A stretch of 64,000 nucleotides of DNA from Thermococcus argininiproducens (GTDB taxonomy: Archaea > Methanobacteriota_B > Thermococci > Thermococcales > Thermococcaceae): contig NZ_CP080572.1 in the NCBI RefSeq assembly GCF_023746595.1, positions 1,844,530 to 1,908,529 of the forward strand, read 5' to 3'. The notes below the pieces were generated by a model. It was not told the DNA's origin. It did no database searches and saw nothing but the letters and a program-made list of their open reading frames with translations. Position 1 is the first letter of the stretch. Every line of letters begins with the position of its first letter. The position numbers and the translations under genes are program-made. This document shows positions 3,621 through 37,443 of the stretch, in pieces.

Positions 3621-3830
3621 TTAAGGCCCCCCTATCTTTTCCTCGTAAATAAATATGTCCTCAATTTTAACTTTAAAAAACTTCGCTATTTTAAAAGCCA
3701 GTTCAAGAGAGGGATTATACTTACCTTTTTCAATCGCTATTATTGTTTGTCTTGTTACTCCAAGTGCTTTGGCTAGGTCTTCTTGAGTTAACCCCTTCCA
3801 TTCTCGAAGTTCACGGAGGCGATTCTTCAT
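3621..3830 (-). CDS. Small XRE-family DNA-binding regulator
   Basis: A 69-residue protein that is almost only an XRE/Cro helix-turn-helix: [37 protein letters not shown]. Proteins of this type sit next to DUF2178-like membrane proteins and ABC exporters in many archaea and bacteria. The start overlaps the previous stop (ATGA at 3827-3830) after GGTGAAACAAA. As the only DNA-binding protein of the operon it is the natural candidate to bind the palindrome at 4626-4661 (inference). Confidence 0.88.
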
Positions 3831-4198
3831 TTTGTTTCACCTTTAAGCCAGTAGTAAACTCTAATTCCAAGATGGATTGATATCGCAAGGGTAATTATGT
3901 TTCTAGAAGTTGTTACGAATTCTTTAAACTGCTGAGTCCCATAGAGCGTTCCAGCCTTCCATGCGAACCATAATAAAGCAAGAAAAATATATGCTTCCAG
4001 AGTTGCTGATGTTATCCTGAGCTCTTTTATACTTTTCTCGATTCCAGCGAGCTCCATTCCAGTATACATGGCAATCATAGACAGTGTTACCGCAATTACT
4101 GCTCCGTAGGGACTCCTTAGCTTTATGAAGTATATTGCAAGTAAGACAAAAAATATCATGATCATAAATGAGATATACCAAACTTTCCGGTTTTTCAT
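3827..4198 (-). CDS. Four-helix membrane protein, DUF2178-like
   Basis: A 123-residue protein with about four hydrophobic segments (residues 8-25, 30-48, 66-83, 98-115) and little else. Size and composition resemble the DUF2178 membrane proteins that travel with small XRE regulators. Function is unknown; it may be an immunity or accessory subunit for the exporter. It is coupled to the regulator gene by a four-base overlap. Confidence 0.7.
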
Positions 4199-4229
4199 GT
4201 CAAAACCCTCACAAGCTTTTATCCTATAA

Positions 4230-4598
4230 TCACATCACCTGTTCATAGTAGTAGTGGGAAACTAAGAGCATCAAGGCCCCTATCGCCAAAGGAATTATGA
4301 GCTTTGTTGCCATTTCACTGTTTCCACTAGTATATTCCCACAGATATTCAAGAAAGAGCAGAAAGCTCATCACAGCATAGCCGTTACGGGCACTTTTGGC
4401 ATGTATTATCTCGGTTCTCTCGTCCTCAACCTTTTGAACCCGAGAATTGTAATACCAAGTAAGTATGTAGGTAAGCAAAAAACCCACCACAAAGATCCCC
4501 ACTGCTAAAAGTGCCTTACCTGACTTAGTTGAATATGCCAAAGCAATTATCATACCTGTGATGAGAATTGCAAGCAAGTGTTCATACCTTACTTTCAT
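4230..4598 (-). CDS. Membrane protein, DUF2178-like, first gene of the exporter operon
   Basis: A 122-residue protein with four hydrophobic stretches. The central VEDERTEIIHAKSARNGY segment, a charged DER...I..KSAR loop between helices 2 and 3, is the hallmark of DUF2178-type proteins. It starts at ATG 4596-4598 after GAGGTGATTATGCA and lies just downstream of the promoter/operator at 4626-4672. It is distantly similar in layout to the next gene, suggesting an old duplication. Confidence 0.72.
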   Translation of the reverse strand: MKVRYEHLLAILITGMIIALAYSTKSGKALLAVGIFVVGFLLTYILTWYYNSRVQKVEDERTEIIHAKSARNGYAVMSFLLFLEYLWEYTSGNSEMATKLIIPLAIGALMLLVSHYYYEQVM

Positions 4599-28780: not shown

Positions 28781-28858
28781 GCGGTGGTAGTCTAGCCTGG
28801 CCTAGGACAGCGGCCTGCCACGCCGCGGGCCCGGGTTCAAATCCCGGCCACCGCACCA
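28781..28858 (+). tRNA. tRNA-Gly (GCC)
   Basis: Acceptor GCGGTGG (28781-28787) pairs with CCACCGC (28848-28854), then A and an encoded CCA. The anticodon arm GCGGC-CTGCCAC-GCCGC gives anticodon GCC. The T arm CCGGG-TTCAAAT-CCCGG is intact. The promoter CGGCGAAAGATTTATAAAG lies at 28733-28750. The accessory island begins right after it, so it may have served as an attachment site. Confidence 0.96.
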
Positions 28859-28918
28859 TTCTAATTTCACGATGATTTGTGGAACTTCCTCACCCAAGAA
28901 GACCCATCTCGCAATTCT

Positions 28919-29355
28919 TCAACAGAATTGTGACTTGTTAATGCCCATCTCGTTCATAACACCGACCAATTCTTCTTCCGGTGTGGTGACTTTATAACCT
29001 TTGGTTATTAAATATTCATAAACTTTTGTACGCTCTCCAAGTATGTCTCTAAGTTTGTAAACTTGAACAACAATCAATTCAACAATATCACCTGAAGATA
29101 ACTCTGACTCGTTTCTAACTTCTCCAGGGATTGTAATTAAACCCTTAGAACTAAGTTTCACTACAATATAGGTCTTTTTAGTGTGTTTATTTTATTGTCG
29201 ACGACTTCAAATGATCCTACAATAACTTCAAGCAAGTCTCCTTTTTCAAGTTGAATATTTCCCGATTCTTAGCAGGGACGACTAATTGGCCCTTAACGTT
29301 TATACTTGTTATGAAATTTTACTATAGGCTCAATGACATCTTGTTCTTTTGTCAT
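28919..29355 (-). pseudogene. Decayed AbrB/SpoVT-type gene (paralog of 30842-31282)
   Basis: The minus strand from ATG 29355 reads MTKEQDVIEPIVKFHNKY before a stop; the alignment to the intact AbrB gene (MTTKNTESQVIEPLAKFH) then continues in other frames: INVKGQLVVPAKNREIFNLKK, GDLLEVIVGSFEVV, and finally VVKLSSKGLITIPGEVRNESELSSGDIVELIVVQ with LRDILGERTKVYEYLITKGY. At least three frame changes are needed. The ATG overlaps the stop of the MCM-like gene (ATGA), so it was once coupled to it. Only the last 80 codons remain open. Confidence 0.78.
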
Positions 29356-30116
29356 TTTTGTCCCTCCGTTTTGGTTTGTTTGGTTACGTGGTTGACTTCT
29401 AGGAGTTTTTCAAAGGTGATTGGAGATCTTTTTTCTTTTGATACTAGACGTAGGATTCCGGTTACTATTATCTTATCCTCGGTGGATACTGTATCTACTA
29501 AATCGTCCAACAGAATCGCTTTTATTTTTGTTCTCTTATCTGAGGGATCACGTATCCAAATTTGTTGGATGTCTAAAAATTGGCTTTCATTAGTGTCAAT
29601 TTCGATTTCTTTACCCCCACAAGCTTCACATTTCTTTGGTTTTATTGCATTGCCAAACGGTTTTTGAATTCTAATCATTATGTTGCCACAGTCTTTGCAC
29701 ACAAAGGCTATTCTTGGAGCGAATATATCTATTCTTCCTGTTTTTGCAACGATTCCCTCAACTTGGACGAATTTATTTCTATGTTTAATCCCAAGTTCTT
29801 TGACGGAATATGTTTTGAGTAGCTCATAAAAGCGGGCATGAATTTTTGGAGAGTTTTTCTTAAAGAATTCTTCTTGGATGACTATTTGAATGGCATCTTC
29901 AGCAGCCAAAATAACATCCTCTGGATTTTCAAGAAGTTCTTCAGCGAGCTCTGGATTAAATGCATTTAAATGTTCCCAATTTATTTCCATTGAATGTTTT
30001 GGAGAAGTAGTCAAGATCTTTGTCAGTTGATTAAGGTAAATTAGGTTCTCGTTTTCATCCAAGTATTCTTTGAAAAACTGGACAAATTTGTCTATTATTT
30101 CTTCTTGCCTACTCAT
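29352..30116 (-). CDS. Stand-alone MCM N-terminal domain protein (no AAA+ domain)
   Basis: A 254-residue protein matching only the N-terminal half of archaeal MCM helicase: subdomain A (INWEHLNAFNPELAEELLENPEDVI, IHARFYELLKT), the KFVQVEGIVAKTG OB strands, a zinc finger with CKDC and CEAC, and the end LDDLVDTVSTEDKIIVTGIL..LEVNHV, where a full MCM would enter the AAA+ core. It stops there. No ATPase remnant follows. The ribosome site GGAGG is 10 bases upstream. It could cap or poison host MCM hexamers, load onto an element origin, or be a truncated relic. Confidence 0.85.
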   Translation of the reverse strand: MSRQEEIIDKFVQFFKEYLDENENLIYLNQLTKILTTSPKHSMEINWEHLNAFNPELAEELLENPEDVILAAEDAIQIVIQEEFFKKNSPKIHARFYELLKTYSVKELGIKHRNKFVQVEGIVAKTGRIDIFAPRIAFVCKDCGNIMIRIQKPFGNAIKPKKCEACGGKEIEIDTNESQFLDIQQIWIRDPSDKRTKIKAILLDDLVDTVSTEDKIIVTGILRLVSKEKRSPITFEKLLEVNHVTKQTKTEGQK

Positions 30117-30198
30117 GCCTTGATGCCTCCTAGTGGCATATAACCAAATTCTGTTATAATCTATATAATATATATGCCTTACGAAAAATTGTTCGACA

Positions 30199-30327
30199 TT
30201 GGGCGCTTTTGAGTGGCAAAAGTTTAATATTTTTTCAAGTAAGAGATTATTTAAACTTGCTCGAGGATATGGAAAGAGGATTTTAACTAATCAAGTTAAG
30301 CCGGGAAGGTATAAGGTGAGGAGGTGA
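30199..30327 (+). CDS. Possible small basic protein
   Basis: An open frame from TTG 30199 to TGA 30325-30327 encodes about 42 residues rich in Lys/Arg (SSKRLFKLARGYGKRILT, then KPGRYKVRR). Its stop lies inside the GGAGGTGAT site of the next gene, suggesting coupling. There is no ribosome site before the TTG; a frame starting ATG 30174 (MPYEKLFDIGRF) would join it by one frameshift. Coding is likely from composition but unproven. Confidence 0.35.
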   Translation: MGAFEWQKFNIFSSKRLFKLARGYGKRILTNQVKPGRYKVRR

Positions 30328-30333
30328 TTTGGG

Positions 30334-30744
30334 ATGGTAGGGTTTGAATTCAGTGGTGATAGGTTTGTTGTGTCCTTGTGGGAGGGAGCTGATAAGGATA
30401 TAATTGACGCTTTAGACAACTTTGTTAAGAAAGCCTTCAAGGAATCGTCACGGGTTTTATATCTTAGGGCAAGAGTTTCGAAAGACAAGGACTTCAAAGA
30501 CGAAGATGATCATCCTATATATGGGTTTTACATAGAGGTGGTTTGCGCGTCTGAGAGGGGATATTCTGGAACAGTTCATATGCCAAAAGACTACATTGAA
30601 CTTGATCCTTTGCTATTTTATGTTGAGGATAATAGAAAACTAGTGGTCTCTCTTGATCGCTCGCCTGATCGACAAGTCGACATGGAGTTGGAATTGCCAG
30701 TTGAGGAGGTTGTTATACACGTTTATAGAAAAATTTCTTATTGA
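30334..30744 (+). CDS. Orphan protein of the island
   Basis: A 136-residue protein I do not recognise. It is acidic and mostly beta (FEFSGDRFVVSLWEG, YGFYIEVVCASERGYSGTVHMP, KLVVSLDRSPDRQVDMELELP), with one helix near residues 22-36. The ribosome site GGAGGTGATTTGGG before ATG 30334 is very strong. It faces the AbrB gene convergently. It has no membrane segment or known catalytic motif. Confidence 0.7.
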   Translation: MVGFEFSGDRFVVSLWEGADKDIIDALDNFVKKAFKESSRVLYLRARVSKDKDFKDEDDHPIYGFYIEVVCASERGYSGTVHMPKDYIELDPLLFYVEDNRKLVVSLDRSPDRQVDMELELPVEEVVIHVYRKISY

Positions 30745-30841
30745 TATTTTTTCTAAACTTCGCCTTTATACATATGGGGTCAACAAGTCTTCATGAGAAA
30801 TTTGTTGACCGGATATCAGATCCAAAAAAATTGAACAATGT

Positions 30842-31282
30842 TTAATTTTCACGTTTAGTAGATGAGGTTATTTGAACATTTGTAGAGAGGATCTCTGCCT
30901 CCTGTGTAGCCGTTAGAATTTCATATTTATTTTTCAACAAGTGCTTAATATTACGGGCCTCTTCGGTGAGGAGGTCGTCAATTTTAAAGTACCTGATTAA
31001 CAATACTTCGAGAATATCATCTTGGATTATGTTGAATTTCTTGACAATTTTTTGGGGAAGATAGATTTTTCCATCTTTTGCCACACGAACAAATACATGT
31101 ACCCGGCTTAAAACAACATTGTCTCTAATAATACGAACTATTAGTTCTACAAAATCGCTTTGCTCTATACTATATCGTTTCCTCGTGATTTTAGGCAAAG
31201 TAAACCTACCATATTTGTCGACTTCAGCGTGAAACTTCGCTAGTGGCTCGATGACTTGTGACTCTGTGTTTTTTGTTGTCAA
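30842..31282 (-). CDS. AbrB/SpoVT-type swapped-hairpin DNA-binding protein, tandem domains
   Basis: A 146-residue protein with two successive AbrB-like units: KYGRFTLPKITRKRYSIEQSDFVELIV (about 20-46) and KDGKIYLPQKIVKKFNIIQDDILEVLLI (about 69-96), each G/R-x-x-LP-x-x-x followed by acid-hydrophobic strands. Such proteins are transition-state or antitoxin-like regulators and are common on archaeal viruses and plasmids. TTG 31282 is the start, after GGAGGGTGGTCGGGC. Its decayed paralog sits at 28919-29355. Confidence 0.78.
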   Translation of the reverse strand: MTTKNTESQVIEPLAKFHAEVDKYGRFTLPKITRKRYSIEQSDFVELIVRIIRDNVVLSRVHVFVRVAKDGKIYLPQKIVKKFNIIQDDILEVLLIRYFKIDDLLTEEARNIKHLLKNKYEILTATQEAEILSTNVQITSSTKREN

Positions 31283-31325
31283 GCCCGACCACCCTCCGGG
31301 TTCACGTGTAATTATTTGAATACGT

Positions 31326-31347
31326 ACTTTTATACAACTTTTATACA
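31326..31347 (-). promoter_or_regulatory. Tandem 11-base repeat with TATA boxes before the AbrB gene
   Basis: The plus-strand unit ACTTTTATACA occurs twice in direct contact; on the minus strand each is TGTATAAAAGT, giving two stacked TATA-like boxes about 45-65 bases before the AbrB start. They may be alternative promoters or half-sites for the AbrB protein. Confidence 0.5.
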
Positions 31348-31473
31348 GATTGTGTTATATCAATGGTATATAGGGTTTGCGGAATTTTTTCCTGCTATGA
31401 AGTTCCAAAAACAGCGGTAATTATATAAAAACCAGTTTGTTAGTTTTGGCTTTGGAAATTTCACTAGAAAGTC

Positions 31474-32064
31474 TCAGATTACTCGTTCTATTTTCTTGGG
31501 AGCTTCTTTGGATTTCAACATTTTATGGATTGGATACCTATGTGTGGATTTGATCTCTGTGAACCAGCGTTCTATTGTTTTTAAGTCTCTTTTGACTAAT
31601 AATATTTCTTCGGGTTTAAACTCTACGGTTATGGGGGCCCCTTTTTGAAGTTCAACTGTAATTGGCGTATCTAAGTGGTAATCTGCAAGGTTACGATACC
31701 ATCTTAGCCTGAAGAGGGCTTCTCGAACTGTTTTTCCAGCGAACTCCCCTATAAATCTCTGTATTACTTGGTGCACGTTATCTTTATGTTTCTTTGGTTG
31801 ATTTGGAAGTGAAGGTGTTAAAAGTTTCTCTAACAAAAGAAGGTCTTGTTTATATTTAATAATCTCTTCAGATTCTTGGTTATTGAGTGCATTTATAACA
31901 TCTTTAACTGCATCAAGGATTTCCTCACGGAGTTTCAGAAAAATATAGTAGTAATATTTGCTAATTGTTGTCCTAATCAGGGCTTCCTCTAAAGTTTGTT
32001 GAGATTTTTGGGAGATAATTTGTTCTAAGTGCTGTGAGAGCTCTTTGAATTTCTCTGGCCCCAT
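31474..32064 (-). CDS. HEPN-domain protein, third gene of a three-gene operon
   Basis: A 196-residue helical protein. The N-terminal LIRTTISKYYYYIFLKLREEIL is the typical first HEPN helix pair (compare xxRxYYAxFxxxR), and LRWYRNLADYHLD carries the R-x5-H motif (RNLADYH) that forms the RNase site of active HEPN toxins. HEPN proteins are common effectors of toxin-antitoxin and phage-defence systems. It is the last gene after two unknown genes reading leftward from 33110. The ATG at 32064 follows GGAGAG. Confidence 0.75.
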   Translation of the reverse strand: MGPEKFKELSQHLEQIISQKSQQTLEEALIRTTISKYYYYIFLKLREEILDAVKDVINALNNQESEEIIKYKQDLLLLEKLLTPSLPNQPKKHKDNVHQVIQRFIGEFAGKTVREALFRLRWYRNLADYHLDTPITVELQKGAPITVEFKPEEILLVKRDLKTIERWFTEIKSTHRYPIHKMLKSKEAPKKIERVI

Positions 32065-32092
32065 TTAAGCTCTCTCCTTTCAATAGCATTGT

Positions 32093-32557
32093 TTAGAAAC
32101 TATACAATATATGAATATCTTTATCAGGATACTTTGAGAGAATGTTGTCTTCTAATTTCTCGAATGCCCTCACTGCCTCATCTATTTTCTTTCGGTTTAG
32201 GTAAGCTACTACATAGAAGAAATTAGCATTATACTCCTCATCTGGAGCTATAACTACTCGTATCTTAGGGATTGTCCTTTTAATATTTGGTATTTCTTTT
32301 AGAGTCTTCAAAATTCCTTTTACAATGGCTCTAAGTTTCTGTTCACGATTCGGAATCTCTAATTGATATATAGATTCGTGAAGTGATTTTTCATAGTAAG
32401 CTTTAAGTTCATTCAAAATGTAATCTAGTTCAGCTTCTGCTTGTTCTTCCCTAATTAATTCTATGGGCACATGATAAGAGAGATCACGAGAAAATCTTTT
32501 TTCAAAGGGAAAATAGAATCCTCTACTCCTCTTTTTTATTTCCTTCGTTGGCATCAT
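32093..32557 (-). CDS. Unknown protein, middle gene of the HEPN operon
   Basis: A 154-residue protein I do not recognise. It starts basic (KKRSRGFYFPFEKRFSRDL), has a central helical block (LDYILNELKAYYEKSL) and ends with an alpha/beta unit, KIRVVIAPDEEYNANFFYVVAYLNRKKIDEAVRAFEKLEDNILSK, whose last strand is DIHILYSF. The gene starts inside the previous one (about 35 bases overlap) and ends 28 bases before the HEPN gene, so it is translationally linked. It could be an antitoxin or adaptor. Confidence 0.65.
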   Translation of the reverse strand: MMPTKEIKKRSRGFYFPFEKRFSRDLSYHVPIELIREEQAEAELDYILNELKAYYEKSLHESIYQLEIPNREQKLRAIVKGILKTLKEIPNIKRTIPKIRVVIAPDEEYNANFFYVVAYLNRKKIDEAVRAFEKLEDNILSKYPDKDIHILYSF

Positions 32558-33110
32558 TATTGATCACCGAGTTTATTTCTTTAATAATTTTTTGTAAGGT
32601 CTCTTTTGTAGTTTCAAAGAAGAACTCTTCAAAATCCATATCTCCTGAGTTATCTATTGATATTCTAACCCCATAACTTTCAAGAGGACCTTCAGGGGTA
32701 TCTTTGACAAACTTTAATATTTCAAACTCTTCCAGGATAGGATTTGTCATGAATTTCCTTGTAAGAAACTTCTTTTTTGTCTCTGGAGTGTACAATTTTT
32801 CGACAATATATTGCTCCAATTCACTAGAGGGTTCTTCTCCTTCTATTTTTGAGAGAAGAACCACCGAGATTAAGAAAGAAGCAATACTCAAATAATCGAC
32901 TGCTTGTACAATATCAATACCGAACTCCTTAACTAGATCCATTTCTGCTATTGTTTTTATTCTAACTTCAATACCACTCCGATATACTCCTATATTCTCT
33001 GGAGTAATTAATTCCTTTTCAATGAGATACTTAACAATCCTCTCAAAAAGTTCTTTATCAAACTTTCCAGATCTAAATTTTATTTTTTCAACTAAACTCT
33101 CATAAGGCAT
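32523..33110 (-). CDS. Unknown protein, first gene of the HEPN operon
   Basis: About 195 residues, not recognised. The first 45 residues look like a winged or HTH-like helical head (YESLVEKIKFRSGKFDKELFERIVKYLIEKELIT), followed by a short hydrophobic stretch (YLSIASFLISVVLLSK, possibly buried rather than membrane) and an acidic C-terminal half with FGIDIV and SYGVRISIDNSGDMDFEEFFFE. The tail is very polar. ATG 33110 follows GGTGAGG. It overlaps the next gene by about 35 bases. Confidence 0.65.
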   Translation of the reverse strand: MPYESLVEKIKFRSGKFDKELFERIVKYLIEKELITPENIGVYRSGIEVRIKTIAEMDLVKEFGIDIVQAVDYLSIASFLISVVLLSKIEGEEPSSELEQYIVEKLYTPETKKKFLTRKFMTNPILEEFEILKFVKDTPEGPLESYGVRISIDNSGDMDFEEFFFETTKETLQKIIKEINSVINNDANEGNKKEE

Positions 33111-33405
33111 TTGCCTCACCTGTAAATGTTAACAATAATTGCGACACCTAAGATACGATATGCTTTTTGATTAACTCCCTTAAATAGGTTACGTATGTAT
33201 GAACATCTCGTTCGTTTGGCACTCTCTCATGTGAGGTATTCTCACAGTAAGATTTTTTCACTTTAATTTCTTTTAACATTTCTGTGTCGATTCAGATTTT
33301 GTAAAAGAGTTCTATTATGTTGATATAGGAAAAGTTTCTACCCCAATAATAATTACATACATAAATTATTTAAATAATAAATTCGTATTTCAAGTGGTGA
33401 TATAA

Positions 33406-33429
33406 ATGCTATTCAAGGAGGCTGAATAA
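33406..33429 (+). CDS. Possible leader mini-ORF before the SDH_sah protease
   Basis: ATG CTA TTC AAG GAG GCT GAA TAA encodes MLFKEAE. It has its own GGTGAT site and its stop overlaps the protease ATG (TAATG), while the AAGGAGG site of the protease lies inside it. This arrangement could couple or attenuate translation. It may also be chance. Confidence 0.35.
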   Translation: MLFKEAE

Positions 33430-34568
33430 TGTCTCGAGAAAATAGAGTTAAACTGATTGAGAAAATTGAGAAATTAAGAAATTCGAGAGTGATTGTCTAT
33501 GTTACTGGAGATAGAAAAAATTACCCTCCATTAAGCCAGATTTCAGATGATGTCTTACCATTATTTAAGGAGATTCTTGATGAAATTGGATGGACCAAAA
33601 GAATTGATTTGTTTCTGTATAGTCGGGGTGGAGCTACAGAAGTCCCTTGGAAGATAGTATCTCTGATAAGAGAATATTGTGACCATTTTGGCGTCTTAAT
33701 TCCGTTCAGAGCACATAGTGCTGCAACTATGATTGCATTAGGTGCGGATGAAATTGTATGCGGGCCAGCAGCGGAGCTTGGCCCAATTGATCCGTCCTTA
33801 ACTACTCCGTTTAACCCAAGAGACCCTCGGGGCAATCCTATACCAATAAGTGTTGAGGCTGTAAGAGCTTACCTTGACTTTGCTTCTGAATATGAGTCAC
33901 AAAAACAGCCTCAAAAGGCTTTTGAGTTGCTATCTAATGTTGCAAATCCTCTGGCAATTGGAGAAGTATATAGACAGCATAACTATATAAGAATGGTCGC
34001 AATGAAATTATTGAAGTTAAATAAGAACTCTCCAGATGATGCCACTTGTGAAAATATTGTCAAAAAGCTTGTGGAGGAAACATATTTTCATGGTCATGCT
34101 ATTAAAAAAGAAGAAGCAAAAGAAATTGGCTTAAATATTATAGATGCCGATCCAGAATTAGAAAAAGTTATGTGGGAATTACTAAAGGAATACAGTAGAG
34201 AAATGGCATTAAATGAGCCATTTGAACCGTTAAAACTCTTAAGGACTAACAATTTTCAAGAAGTAGAAGATGAGAATGTATGTGGATTGTTAGAGAGCTC
34301 TACAATAAGCTATGTGAACATTGCTAAGGTTTTGGTCCAGTCAATAAGACAAATGCCCCCATCAATTTCACTTAACATTCCTCTGGTGTTGCCACCGAAT
34401 ATTGCTGAAATTATAGAAACAAATCCGGACTTGAGAGATATTATTAATGAATTGTATCAAAACTTAGTTGCAAGAATCCAACAACAAGTAATTCAAGAGC
34501 TAAACAGACAAGCCCCTGTAGTAGATGTTGACCTTAAAAGAATAGAAGTCAAGTGGATTAAGTTATAA
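33429..34568 (+). CDS. ClpP-fold serine protease of the SDH_sah type
   Basis: A 379-residue protein of the SppA/ClpP-like SDH_sah family. RIDLFLYSRGGATEVPW gives the oxyanion SxGG loop (about residues 57-75), and FRAHSAATMIALGADEIVCG holds the candidate nucleophile Ser (about 97), followed by ELGPIDPSLT. The N-terminal membrane anchor of many relatives is absent, so it should be cytoplasmic. A C-terminal half of about 170 residues is extra and unrecognised. Family members occur in mobile and defence islands. The start has AAGGAGG and overlaps the leader ORF. Confidence 0.8.
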   Translation: MSRENRVKLIEKIEKLRNSRVIVYVTGDRKNYPPLSQISDDVLPLFKEILDEIGWTKRIDLFLYSRGGATEVPWKIVSLIREYCDHFGVLIPFRAHSAATMIALGADEIVCGPAAELGPIDPSLTTPFNPRDPRGNPIPISVEAVRAYLDFASEYESQKQPQKAFELLSNVANPLAIGEVYRQHNYIRMVAMKLLKLNKNSPDDATCENIVKKLVEETYFHGHAIKKEEAKEIGLNIIDADPELEKVMWELLKEYSREMALNEPFEPLKLLRTNNFQEVEDENVCGLLESSTISYVNIAKVLVQSIRQMPPSISLNIPLVLPPNIAEIIETNPDLRDIINELYQNLVARIQQQVIQELNRQAPVVDVDLKRIEVKWIKL

Positions 34569-34571
34569 AAA

Positions 34572-34748
34572 TTATTGGTGGATAACAACTTGGGTTGTGG
34601 GCTCAAGAGATACCTCAATTGGGGGATTTAAACACACTCTCGGCTCGTTAATGGATTTTGGTTTGCTTTTTGGAGTTTTCTCGGAAAACTTATACTCAAA
34701 TCTAAATTCATTCCATGGCAAGAAATTAAGCTTGATTTCGATTTTCAT
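34572..34748 (-). CDS. Small orphan protein
   Basis: A 58-residue protein starting MKIEIKLNFLPWNEFRFEY, with a Lys/Pro-rich middle (KTPKSKPKSINEP) and end VSLEPTTQVVIHQ. GGGGTGATAAAT precedes the ATG at 34748 and a TATA-like ATATTTATATTAAC lies about 40 bases upstream, so it is likely expressed. It converges on the protease gene with a three-base gap. It resembles nothing I can name. Confidence 0.55.
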   Translation of the reverse strand: MKIEIKLNFLPWNEFRFEYKFSEKTPKSKPKSINEPRVCLNPPIEVSLEPTTQVVIHQ

Positions 34749-34928
34749 ATTTATCACCCCTAATATTATTTTGGAGTTTAAAGTTAATATAAATATTGCC
34801 TCTAGTAGATACATAACTTCAGATGAATTTTGGCGTCTGTGTATAAAACGATTTTGTTGTCTGCATTTCCAGCAGTGTAGCGAAAGTTTCTTATATGATT
34901 AATGTATATCCACTGATGGGAGAGAGTA

Positions 34929-35432
34929 ATGGAGGAGGCTAGATTTAAGAGGCTTGTCGCTTTTTTAAAGGCTCTTGAAAAGAAGACAGGATATAAATTT
35001 ACTATTGAGACTTTTGAAGATAGGATGAGACTCCAAAAACTTGTTTATCTCGCTAAGCACTTTGGCATTGATTTGGAATATAACTTCACTCTTTACATTA
35101 GAGGGCCTTATTCATCAGAACTTGCAGATGATTACTACAAGATAGAACGGGACTATGATGGTGAGATTCCAGAAATTTTAGACGAGTTTATTACAGAGGA
35201 GAAAGTAGATACTTTCATAGAATTCGTGAAAGACAAAGACACAGAAGAACTTGAATTAATAGCAACACTTCTAATGGTGTTAGGAAGACACAAGCCCTTC
35301 CTTAACTCTTTACCTGAAGAAGAAAGAGAGGATTTGGTGGTAAAAACCATTCAGGATATCAAACCATACTTTACTAAAGACAAAATATTAGAAGCGATTA
35401 GAGAGATTGAGAAGGTTAAGATTGTTGGATAA
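34929..35432 (+). CDS. YwgA/DUF4065 (SocA/Panacea)-like protein
   Basis: A 167-residue protein. RMRLQKLVYLAKHFGIDLEYNFTLYIRGPYSSELADDYYKI matches the hallmark of the YwgA and DUF4065 (Panacea) families: LQKLvYL..., then Y..Y..GPYS.EL..D. Panacea domains act as antitoxins or chaperone-like modules in toxin-antitoxin pairs. The remainder is helical and acidic. The 3' end overlaps the convergent PIN gene by 17 bases. The ribosome site GGGAGAG is modest. Confidence 0.72.
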   Translation: MEEARFKRLVAFLKALEKKTGYKFTIETFEDRMRLQKLVYLAKHFGIDLEYNFTLYIRGPYSSELADDYYKIERDYDGEIPEILDEFITEEKVDTFIEFVKDKDTEELELIATLLMVLGRHKPFLNSLPEEEREDLVVKTIQDIKPYFTKDKILEAIREIEKVKIVG

Positions 35433-36090
35433 TGCTATCAATAACTTTGAGAGGTTTTCTTCCAATTTTTTCACAGAGTCTTTGGACAGTTGGATTTCCC
35501 ACCATAATCGTGTCTGTTGTGAGAAGATAATCGGCTTCATCAGCAATGGCATGAGCCAAAATTAATACATCCGTTGAGGTTAGGTAAGTACCATCGTGAA
35601 AGTTATAGGATATATCATCTACTTCGTCTATTTTTTCAAAACATATCTCTTTGTTTTTAACATATGGATTGTTTAAACACATGAGAATTCTAGCAATTCT
35701 ATAAGCCTCCGGAGGTACTGGAGGTAATTCTGCATTCAGGTTTTTAATTAAAGTATAAAATTGTCCTAGAATTATCTCTCTTTTCTCGTCTAAAGAAAGG
35801 TTAGAAGTTAATATACCTTTATTCCGACTTTCCCATCCTTTAAGTTCGTTCTCGTTCTTTCGGTATAATATAGAAGAGAATTCTCCAACAACAACTTGAG
35901 AAATTTTAACAATATATGTTTCGGAATAATTAGTAAGGGCTTTGATATTATTTTTGGCAGTTATATAGGTGTCGGATTCCTCCTTATCTAAGAGATACCC
36001 ACATATCATTTCAGTATCTAAATAAACAACTTGACGGCCTGTATGTGTGTTTTTTTGATTGTTTTTCTTTTTACGGCCTCTCCTTGCCAT
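35416..36090 (-). CDS. PIN-domain protein
   Basis: A 224-residue protein with a basic head (ARRGRKKKNNQKN). PIN motifs: VVYLDTEMICGYLL (first Asp), VVVGEFSSIL (Glu), STDVLILAHAIADEADYLLTTDTIM (the Asp pair and final D). PIN proteins are metal-dependent RNases, often VapC-like toxins, but this one is about 80 residues longer than VapC. The start has GGAGGTATGTC before the ATG. Its partner may be the overlapping YwgA-like gene; an upstream antitoxin is not seen. Confidence 0.78.
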   Translation of the reverse strand: MARRGRKKKNNQKNTHTGRQVVYLDTEMICGYLLDKEESDTYITAKNNIKALTNYSETYIVKISQVVVGEFSSILYRKNENELKGWESRNKGILTSNLSLDEKREIILGQFYTLIKNLNAELPPVPPEAYRIARILMCLNNPYVKNKEICFEKIDEVDDISYNFHDGTYLTSTDVLILAHAIADEADYLLTTDTIMVGNPTVQRLCEKIGRKPLKVIDSIIQQS

Positions 36091-36473
36091 GACATACCTC
36101 CAAATACTTATAACTGAATCTCAGGTACATATAGCTTACTCTGGTAGCGATTACCAACATGACAAATAATTGTAGTAAAAACTGTCAAAATAATAATGAA
36201 GCAGAAAAATAAGCTAAATATTTTGTCTAGAAAGCCTGCGAGTTAAGAAAAGAATTGTGAAAAACATCTACTTCTCACAAGTATAGGATGGGCCGGGAGG
36301 CCCTTGGCAGTGGCTAAATGGAAACAGTTCATGGAATGTACACAAGTGGGAATTTTTAAGCTTTATGCTGGTAAAAAGTCAATATTTTTGGATTAGAAAG
36401 GGAACTTATGGTTAATTCGGAAATAAGAGAAGGTTTAAATAGTTATTTTTTGCAAAAATACTGAGGGATGGTT
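36091..36473. other. Gene-free interval before the first DUF257 gene
   Basis: About 380 AT-rich bases with no supported ORF. It holds one GC-rich patch around 36288-36314 (GGATGGGCCGGGAGGCCCTTGG, containing GGGCC/GGCCC) and a TATA-like GGTTTAAATAG at about 36432-36442, which should drive the DUF257 gene. I see no RNA gene I can support. Confidence 0.5.
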
Positions 36474-37100
36474 ATGTGGGAGGTATTTACTAAGTTAAAT
36501 CCCGGAGAAGTGGTTTTAGTTGAGTATTCCTCCAAAGTAAACCCGTTACCCGTTTTTGCAGAAATAATAAAGTGGGCTAATGCCAGAGGATACCAAATCC
36601 TGATTACGGATCTTCTTAATAGACTCGAATTGTGCTTAAGGTACATGAAAATTGGGAAAAGTGAATGTAAGGCGCTGGAGAAAGCAAAGGTTGTTGAGAT
36701 TGGTTATCGTGAACCTCCCGAGGTAAATGTGGTGAAGTTCATCAACGGAGATAGGGAATTGCCAGCATTACTTTCAGAATACAAGAAAGTCTACGAGAAG
36801 CTAGTAAGTGAAAAGTTTACTGTTGCGTTCTTGTTGGGGGTTGAGAGGTACGTTATTTTAAGAAGAAATGATGCAATCAAACTTGTCAGTATTCTTGGAG
36901 CTTTTGTGGGAGACACTCGCAGAATAGCATTTTATTTTGTAAATAAGGACATATTGGAGGGTATTATTCCAAATCCATTAACTATGCTTGAGGAGCTTGC
37001 TACAACAATAATAGAGCTCGAAAAAGAGAGGGGGAGGATAAGACTTTGTATTACCAAAGCACTTAATCCTGAGCTTGACGGCCAAGAAATTGTAATCTAA
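36474..37100 (+). CDS. DUF257 family protein, copy 1
   Basis: A 208-residue member of DUF257, a family confined to Thermococcales as far as I know, with a RecA/KaiC-like core lacking a clear Walker A. It begins MWEVFTKLNPGEVVLVEYSSKVNPLPVF and has AFVGDTRRIAFYFVNKDIL near residue 145 and RIRLCITKALNPELDGQEIVI at the end. I start at ATG 36474, after GAGGGATGGTT. The paralog at 37444 shares all these blocks. Function unknown. Confidence 0.82.
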   Translation: MWEVFTKLNPGEVVLVEYSSKVNPLPVFAEIIKWANARGYQILITDLLNRLELCLRYMKIGKSECKALEKAKVVEIGYREPPEVNVVKFINGDRELPALLSEYKKVYEKLVSEKFTVAFLLGVERYVILRRNDAIKLVSILGAFVGDTRRIAFYFVNKDILEGIIPNPLTMLEELATTIIELEKERGRIRLCITKALNPELDGQEIVI

Positions 37101-37443
37101 CTTATCTTGAATCCTTTTACTATTCTTCTTTTAGACATTAAAAGCAAAATATTGGTTAATGGTGCAGTTACCCTTGCTACAATACTTATGGTTGTTTCTC
37201 TGGAGCCCAATAATTACTGACCTTTTCCCTGCTCTGACATGCGAGGCTTTTTATGGCATAATAACATTCAAAAGCATGAGGCTTTATTCCTCAATAACTT
37301 ACAAATTTTCAAAAATTTTCGGATTTTTTGTAGTTTTTCTCATGTTTTTACATAAATATTAGAGATTTTACAATATCCAGCAGTAGATATTCATAAAATA
37401 TTTAAGGAATTAATTATTAAATAAAGTCATAATGGTGAGTCAT
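37101..37443. other. Gene-free interval between the DUF257 paralogs
   Basis: About 340 AT-rich bases. The only plus-strand ORF (37159-37362) lacks a ribosome site and coding character. A TATA-like AATATTTAAGG about 40 bases before the second DUF257 gene is the likely promoter. Confidence 0.45.

Follow-up and report, generated by a model that had tools for sequence, protein, structure and literature searches.

The window analysed here, a 64-kb stretch of the complete, single-contig 1.946-Mb genome of Thermococcus argininiproducens (G000:C1:1844530-1908529), carries a stand-alone gene for the N-terminal half of the MCM replicative helicase (MCM-N), which is intact and under purifying selection rather than a decaying stump. 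Its best explanation, which we hold with a little less than even confidence and which rests on sequence comparison, is that a cellular MCM gave rise to a gene of a mobile element, and that this gene now encodes a dedicated non-helicase protein, which would modulate the replication of the element by acting on the host MCM/GINS. The gene and its parts are arranged as follows (window coordinates).

29352 to 30116, minus strand: stand-alone MCM-N gene, 254 aa, with subdomain A, Zn and OB and without AAA+.
29808 to 30116, minus strand: subdomain A (residues 1-103), the best-kept part, with 65% identity to the genome's own cellular MCM.
29568 to 29726, minus strand: Zn subdomain (residues 131-183), with C140, C143, C163 and C166.
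29520 to 29549, minus strand: place (residues 190-199) at which the allosteric communication loop has been lost, with a 6-aa deletion and the PEx(1-3)GGxxPR motif gone.

The reading frame has an ATG start and no internal stops, and Pfam recognises MCM_N in residues 10-97 (E 1.3e-15) and MCM_OB in residues 105-225 (E 1.4e-16). No Pfam match to AAA+ (PF00493) occurs in the protein, which stops at residue 254 and has none of the motor (Walker A/B, Arg finger). Since the P. furiosus MCM-N crystal construct aligns with residues 4-247 (E 3.7e-73) and the full MCM of the same genome with residues 3-249 (52% identity), the protein ends where the AAA+ core is expected. All four zinc cysteines are present. 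These data bear out the preliminary description of this DNA, which had seen a complete gene for the A, zinc and OB subdomains, with its frame and Cys pairs intact, ending just before the AAA+ core. A contig-end or sequencing artefact was rejected because the genome is one complete contig and an orthologue is intact, while a recent duplication of the host MCM was rejected on the 52% identity and the long stem branch of the solo proteins. AlphaFold gave no usable fold (pLDDT 38.7), and PADLOC found no defence match for MCM-N. The host MCM gene itself (G000:C1:54429-62042, minus strand) is an unusually long frame of 2740 aa with the MCM domain in five pieces, split as by several inteins, and these splits would be insertions of that type.

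Among 94 genomes of the family, the sole other stand-alone copy (254 aa, 82% identity) is found in contig L040 (G083:C28, QMUE01000028.1) of the Thermococci MAG B5_G13 from Guaymas, which is fragmentary and 77% complete. Every other match over the full span belongs to a full MCM or lies at the end of a contig, and contig ends also account for the short frames of some relatives (for example, the match at 3693-4262 on a 4317-base contig of G049). At the DNA level, the window and L040 are similar along the gene and for a further 57 bases upstream of it, but no farther. The two solo genes differ by 59 synonymous and 50 nonsynonymous changes (Fisher p 9e-17), which correspond to dS 0.503, dN 0.088 and omega 0.175 (NG86); differences by codon position are 28/22/59, with zero indels. 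The relative-rate test gives 15 versus 12 unique changes, which is not significant, and therefore the window copy is not relaxed. In this pair of genomes, the N-terminal parts of the cellular MCMs show dS 1.44 and omega 0.034. The far lower dS of the solo genes indicates that they are younger in this pair than the genomes, implying lateral transfer of the solo gene; the alternative, a mis-binned MAG contig, would still leave a patchily distributed gene.

These figures also bear on the view that the gene is a relic without function, a piece of MCM that was captured and now drifts in a genomic island. It occurs in only 2 of the 94 family genomes, its stem branch is long (0.63), and its AbrB partner in the window is broken (see below). 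However, the omega value, the codon-position pattern, the lack of indels between the orthologues and their equal rates all speak for purifying selection, the promoter is conserved, and a common loop deletion is older than the orthologue split. The relic reading is thus disfavoured, and we regard it as very improbable. The preliminary description had likewise taken the gene to be selected rather than decaying, and had named full-length closest relatives together with a dN/dS near 1 as signs of the opposite: the closest relatives, bar the one orthologue, are indeed full-length cellular MCMs, but dN/dS is not near 1.

The same description had proposed a free hexamerisation domain that could bind DNA or mix with the host MCM, and here it has to be amended, because the protein is not simply such a domain set free: its coupling loop is gone, R186 is replaced by Trp, and Zn/OB has diverged far more than A. 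Residues were mapped to the P. furiosus MCM numbering, with functions taken from PMC3970758 and PMC4627082, according to which the allosteric communication loop couples MCM-N to AAA+. In both solo proteins, this loop (QDRPE-TLKGGE-MPRF in cellular form) and R201 were lost via a common 6-aa deletion. Haloferax MCM does not tolerate short deletions in the loop (PMC3972481), so the deletion agrees with a protein that has given up helicase function. The Trp substitution, shared by both solo proteins, affects one of the two key ssDNA-binding arginines of the MSSB; R124 is kept as K/R, K129 is Asp in the window copy and Lys in L040, the hexamer-core F179 is kept in both, and the beta-turn still has basic residues. 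Loss at the subunit interface (P130, V132 and the R201 region) may weaken ring formation. Identity to the host MCM falls from 65% in A to 53% in Zn and 38% in OB, while among cellular MCMs the order is reversed, with conservation highest in OB (mean 89%) and lowest in A (72%). Host-invariant columns kept by both solo proteins amount to 27/37 in A versus 42/94 in Zn+OB (p 0.004).

This distribution is pertinent to another explanation, under which the protein does not need the host MCM: its Zn/OB module, alone or as a ring, would sit on dsDNA at the origin or partition site of the element and aid initiation or segregation. P. furiosus MCM-N constructs do bind both ss and dsDNA (PMC3970758), basic residues are left in the beta-turn, the haloarchaeal MCM-N genes considered below lie by ParA in most records, and the AbrB family is present at the pT26-2 origin. 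Nevertheless, Zn/OB, which is the DNA-binding part, is the diverged one, including the change of R186 in both copies and of K129 in the window copy, whereas the best-kept subdomain A is not a DNA-binding part. We consider this explanation unlikely.

The surroundings of the gene point to mobile DNA, and the relevant features are as follows.

28781 to 28858, plus strand: tRNA-Gly(GCC); homology with seven genus-mates ends at its 3' end.
28859 to 37283: strain-specific 8.4-kb insert with the MCM-N, AbrB, HEPN-like, Clp/SDH-like protease, DarG-C-like and PIN genes.
28919 to 29355, minus strand: broken tandem-AbrB gene, with several frame shifts, whose start overlaps the MCM-N stop (ATGA).
30117 to 30173, minus strand: promoter/leader kept in L040 (CDS and leader about 86% nucleotide identity), beyond which homology ends.
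30139 to 30158: inverted repeat TATAAC-N8-GTTATA, a candidate operator, kept in L040.
30842 to 31282, minus strand: intact tandem-AbrB paralogue of 146 aa, with 41% identity to the L040 AbrB.

Homology with the closest genus-mates returns at about 37284 and 38412, and with all of them from 48443; these breakpoints place the solo gene in a strain-specific insert at the tRNA. The link to a mobile element suggested by the preliminary description gains support from the insert, from the horizontal transfer (dS 0.50 versus 1.44) and from an AbrB neighbour of the plasmid-origin type. Scanning of the insert genes with Pfam, PHROGs and PADLOC revealed zero integrase family matches among the larger ORFs and no recognisable replication gene, so that the insert may be a relic island. 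No 12-nt repeat of tRNA-Gly occurs within the 64-kb window; of the pT26-2-type arrangement (an integrase and a tRNA target with att repeats), only the tRNA-Gly at the boundary was found.

The insert holds several other genes. The Clp/SDH-fold protease at 33429-34568 matches phrog_11747 (E 1.8e-43), and its best plasmid match is a serine protease of an E. coli plasmid (38.7% identity), an apparent transfer between domains of life. The DarG-C-terminal-like protein (34929-35432) and the PIN-domain protein (35416-36090) form a convergent pair, possibly of the toxin-antitoxin or defence type. A three-gene row at 31474-33119 (minus strand) comprises a HEPN_IX-like first match (PADLOC E 5.6e-7) and two orphan proteins.

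The stop/start overlap noticed in the preliminary description is real, but only L040 has an intact gene there: a 142-aa tandem-AbrB protein whose start codon shares the ATGA with the MCM-N stop. The window counterpart is broken; its frame, which begins at the overlapping ATG, reaches a stop after 20 codons and has further frame shifts, although the DNA retains 64% identity to the L040 AbrB gene. Since this partner is broken, regulation may already be lost in the window. The longer form of the inverted repeat in the leader has a single occurrence in the genome.

The tandem-AbrB family is present in 45 of the 94 Thermococcaceae genomes and includes t26-20p of pT26-2 and its pGE2 counterpart, both adjoining a Rep gene; the pT26-2 origin was predicted right beside t26-20p (PMC6972569). 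The t26-20p protein is of the same family as the L040 regulator but, unlike it, flanks a predicted origin and a P-loop Rep gene. Tandem AbrBs also lie upstream of full mobile-element MCMs in L087, L088, L089 and L091. In a 527-aa Thermococcus protein (L092:4178-5758, plus strand), our own HMM picks out a Zn/OB stretch of MCM type (E 2.9e-12); AAA+ is not recognisable in it.

Toxin genes precede the tandem AbrB in other loci, namely HicA in L056, PemK/MazF in L055 and ParE in L049. This raises the question of whether MCM-N and AbrB form a toxin-antitoxin-like pair, in which MCM-N would be a dominant-negative poison of the host MCM, and the overlapping AbrB both antitoxin and repressor. The ATGA bicistron of L040 has the same layout as HicA (E 3.1e-7) with tandem AbrB in the genus-mate L056, and the adjacency of PemK/MazF and ParE genes to further family members agrees with it. 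However, the window has an intact MCM-N beside a broken AbrB, which would rule out a true poison unless the second AbrB (30842-31282) stands in for the lost one; moreover, many tandem AbrBs have no toxin nearby, and the haloarchaeal counterparts are paired with PadR and not with an antitoxin. Such a pair appears to us distinctly unlikely.

As for ancestry, the solo proteins join the cellular MCMs in the full tree (90/84), outside the mobile-element MCM clade, and in the A-only tree they branch within cellular MCMs from the window's genus and from a single sister genus (92/96); the Zn/OB-only tree does not place them. There is thus no support for an origin in the old MGE MCM clade of Thermococcales. 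The cellular Thermococcaceae MCMs (P. furiosus MCM-N, 4POF/4POG; T. kodakarensis MCM3, 8X7T/8X7U), from which the solo gene descends, share with it the A/Zn/OB order, the four zinc Cys, the F179 equivalent and about 50% identity, but the solo protein is without the AAA+ motor and the coupling loop, carries R186W and a far diverged Zn/OB, and lies in a mobile context. The MCMs of Thermococcales viruses and plasmids (TKV, pTN3, Yamaviridae; PMC12934983) resemble the solo gene as MCM parts in mobile elements, some adjoining AbrB, but these are complete helicases, in many cases extended by a wHTH at the N-terminus, and form an old separate clade.

To place the gene in a wider frame, we surveyed haloarchaeal-side genomes and plasmids beyond Thermococcales. 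MCM-N-only proteins, which the preliminary description had proposed to seek in plasmids and viruses, were found on haloarchaeal plasmids; IMG/VR scans gave zero stand-alone relatives. Three kinds were distinguished. The first (clade a) comes from seven Halorussus megaplasmids (L117, L118, L120-L124) and has MCM-N proteins of 244-248 aa (WP_253521081, 244 aa, and orthologues) with 64-69% identity to the query; a PadR regulator gene lies about 100 nt downstream in 7/7, and a ParA gene within the fetched stretch in 5/7. Its relatives are found in G307, with a PadR-like gene downstream, and in G457, on a chromosomal contig without PadR. Pairwise omega in this clade is 0.18-0.44. The Halorussus proteins, which are plasmid-borne, resemble the solo in that they are stand-alone, have lost the loop and kept Zn, are under purifying selection and have a regulator gene downstream, but they form their own clade and have PadR rather than AbrB, with ParA in most loci. 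On the opposite strand of the Halorussus locus, a 224-aa protein shows a weak Phage_rep_O match.

The second kind (class b) belongs to Natrialbaceae plasmids (L158-L164), where MCM-N with a C-terminal extension (312-321 aa) is encoded directly behind genes of about 800 aa without a Pfam match. Kristensen et al. (2014; PMC3972481) noted four N-terminal-only haloarchaeal MCMs of 312-315 aa, function unknown, so MCM-N-only proteins are not unprecedented; judging by length and genus, these four probably belong to class (b), an example on the same grounds being WP_012946165 of pHTUR05. They are plasmid-borne, resemble the solo in having MCM-N without AAA+, with Zn kept and the loop lost, and differ from it in a separate origin, in a C-terminal extension of about 80-90 aa (312-315 aa versus 254 aa), and in standing behind large genes of unknown function instead of in an AbrB pair.

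In the third kind (class c), found in G211, Haloglomus and Haloplanus, MCM-N is fused to an HSDR_N nuclease-like domain. These proteins (L114:906-2210, minus strand; L116:3710-5203; L119:2477-3772) have MCM_N/MCM_OB with HSDR_N (PD-(D/E)XK-type) in the place of AAA+ and are annotated as type I restriction HsdR N-terminal proteins; they represent a possible new effector type.

In the tree, the thermococcal solo proteins group with Thermococcaceae MCMs (100/100), the Halorussus-type clade is separate (100/98), and the fusions also stand apart, so the motor-less form has at least two origins. Counts for the canonical loop motif are 50/50 in cellular MCMs, 8/17 in full-length mobile MCMs and 0/19 in motor-less proteins; because members within a clade are not independent, p-values on these counts overstate the significance. 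Both CxxC pairs are kept in 19/19 motor-less proteins. What is new here is the thermococcal branch of this scarcely noticed kind, the convergent loop loss and the regulator pairing.

We return to the proposed modulator of host replication. The parts that were kept (A, the Zn fold and the hexamer core) are those of protein contact, and the gene has a mobile context and an adjacent regulator, while the parts that were lost (the loop, R186 and much of OB) serve motor coupling and ssDNA binding; both facts argue for this reading. In CMG structures, subdomain A contacts GINS/GAN. We suppose that the AbrB protein represses the MCM-N/AbrB pair via the inverted repeat, and that the solo protein engages the host replisome through its kept surfaces, subdomain A towards GINS/GAN or MCM partners and the Zn face towards the N-face of MCM rings. 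It would thereby modulate the loading or activation of the host MCM at the origin of the element or of the host, most likely as a decoy or cap by which replication is kept low, in control of copy number or of host replication, because a subunit without AAA+ and the coupling loop cannot take part in unwinding. On the other side, only two thermococcal members are known, and the loss of the MSSB could mean that ssDNA binding is simply gone and that the solo protein has some other, unrelated task.

The haloarchaeal plasmid cases suggest that mobile DNA has repeatedly made a helicase-related control protein in this way. With slightly more reserve than for the thermococcal gene itself, we propose that motor-less MCM-N proteins may be a recurrent, convergent class of replication regulators of archaeal plasmids and proviruses, with the N-half captured, the loop deleted and AbrB or PadR alongside, acting on the host CMG. 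If this is true, archaeal mobile elements have turned the N-terminal ring of the archaeal/eukaryotic-type replicative helicase into natural inhibitors or adaptors of that same helicase; we found no description of such a CMG counterpart in the literature searched. That all motor-less proteins have lost the loop, naturally and under selection, provides independent evidence that its purpose is communication with AAA+, and the Halorussus plasmids offer a route to testing plasmid copy-number control through MCM in cultivable haloarchaea.
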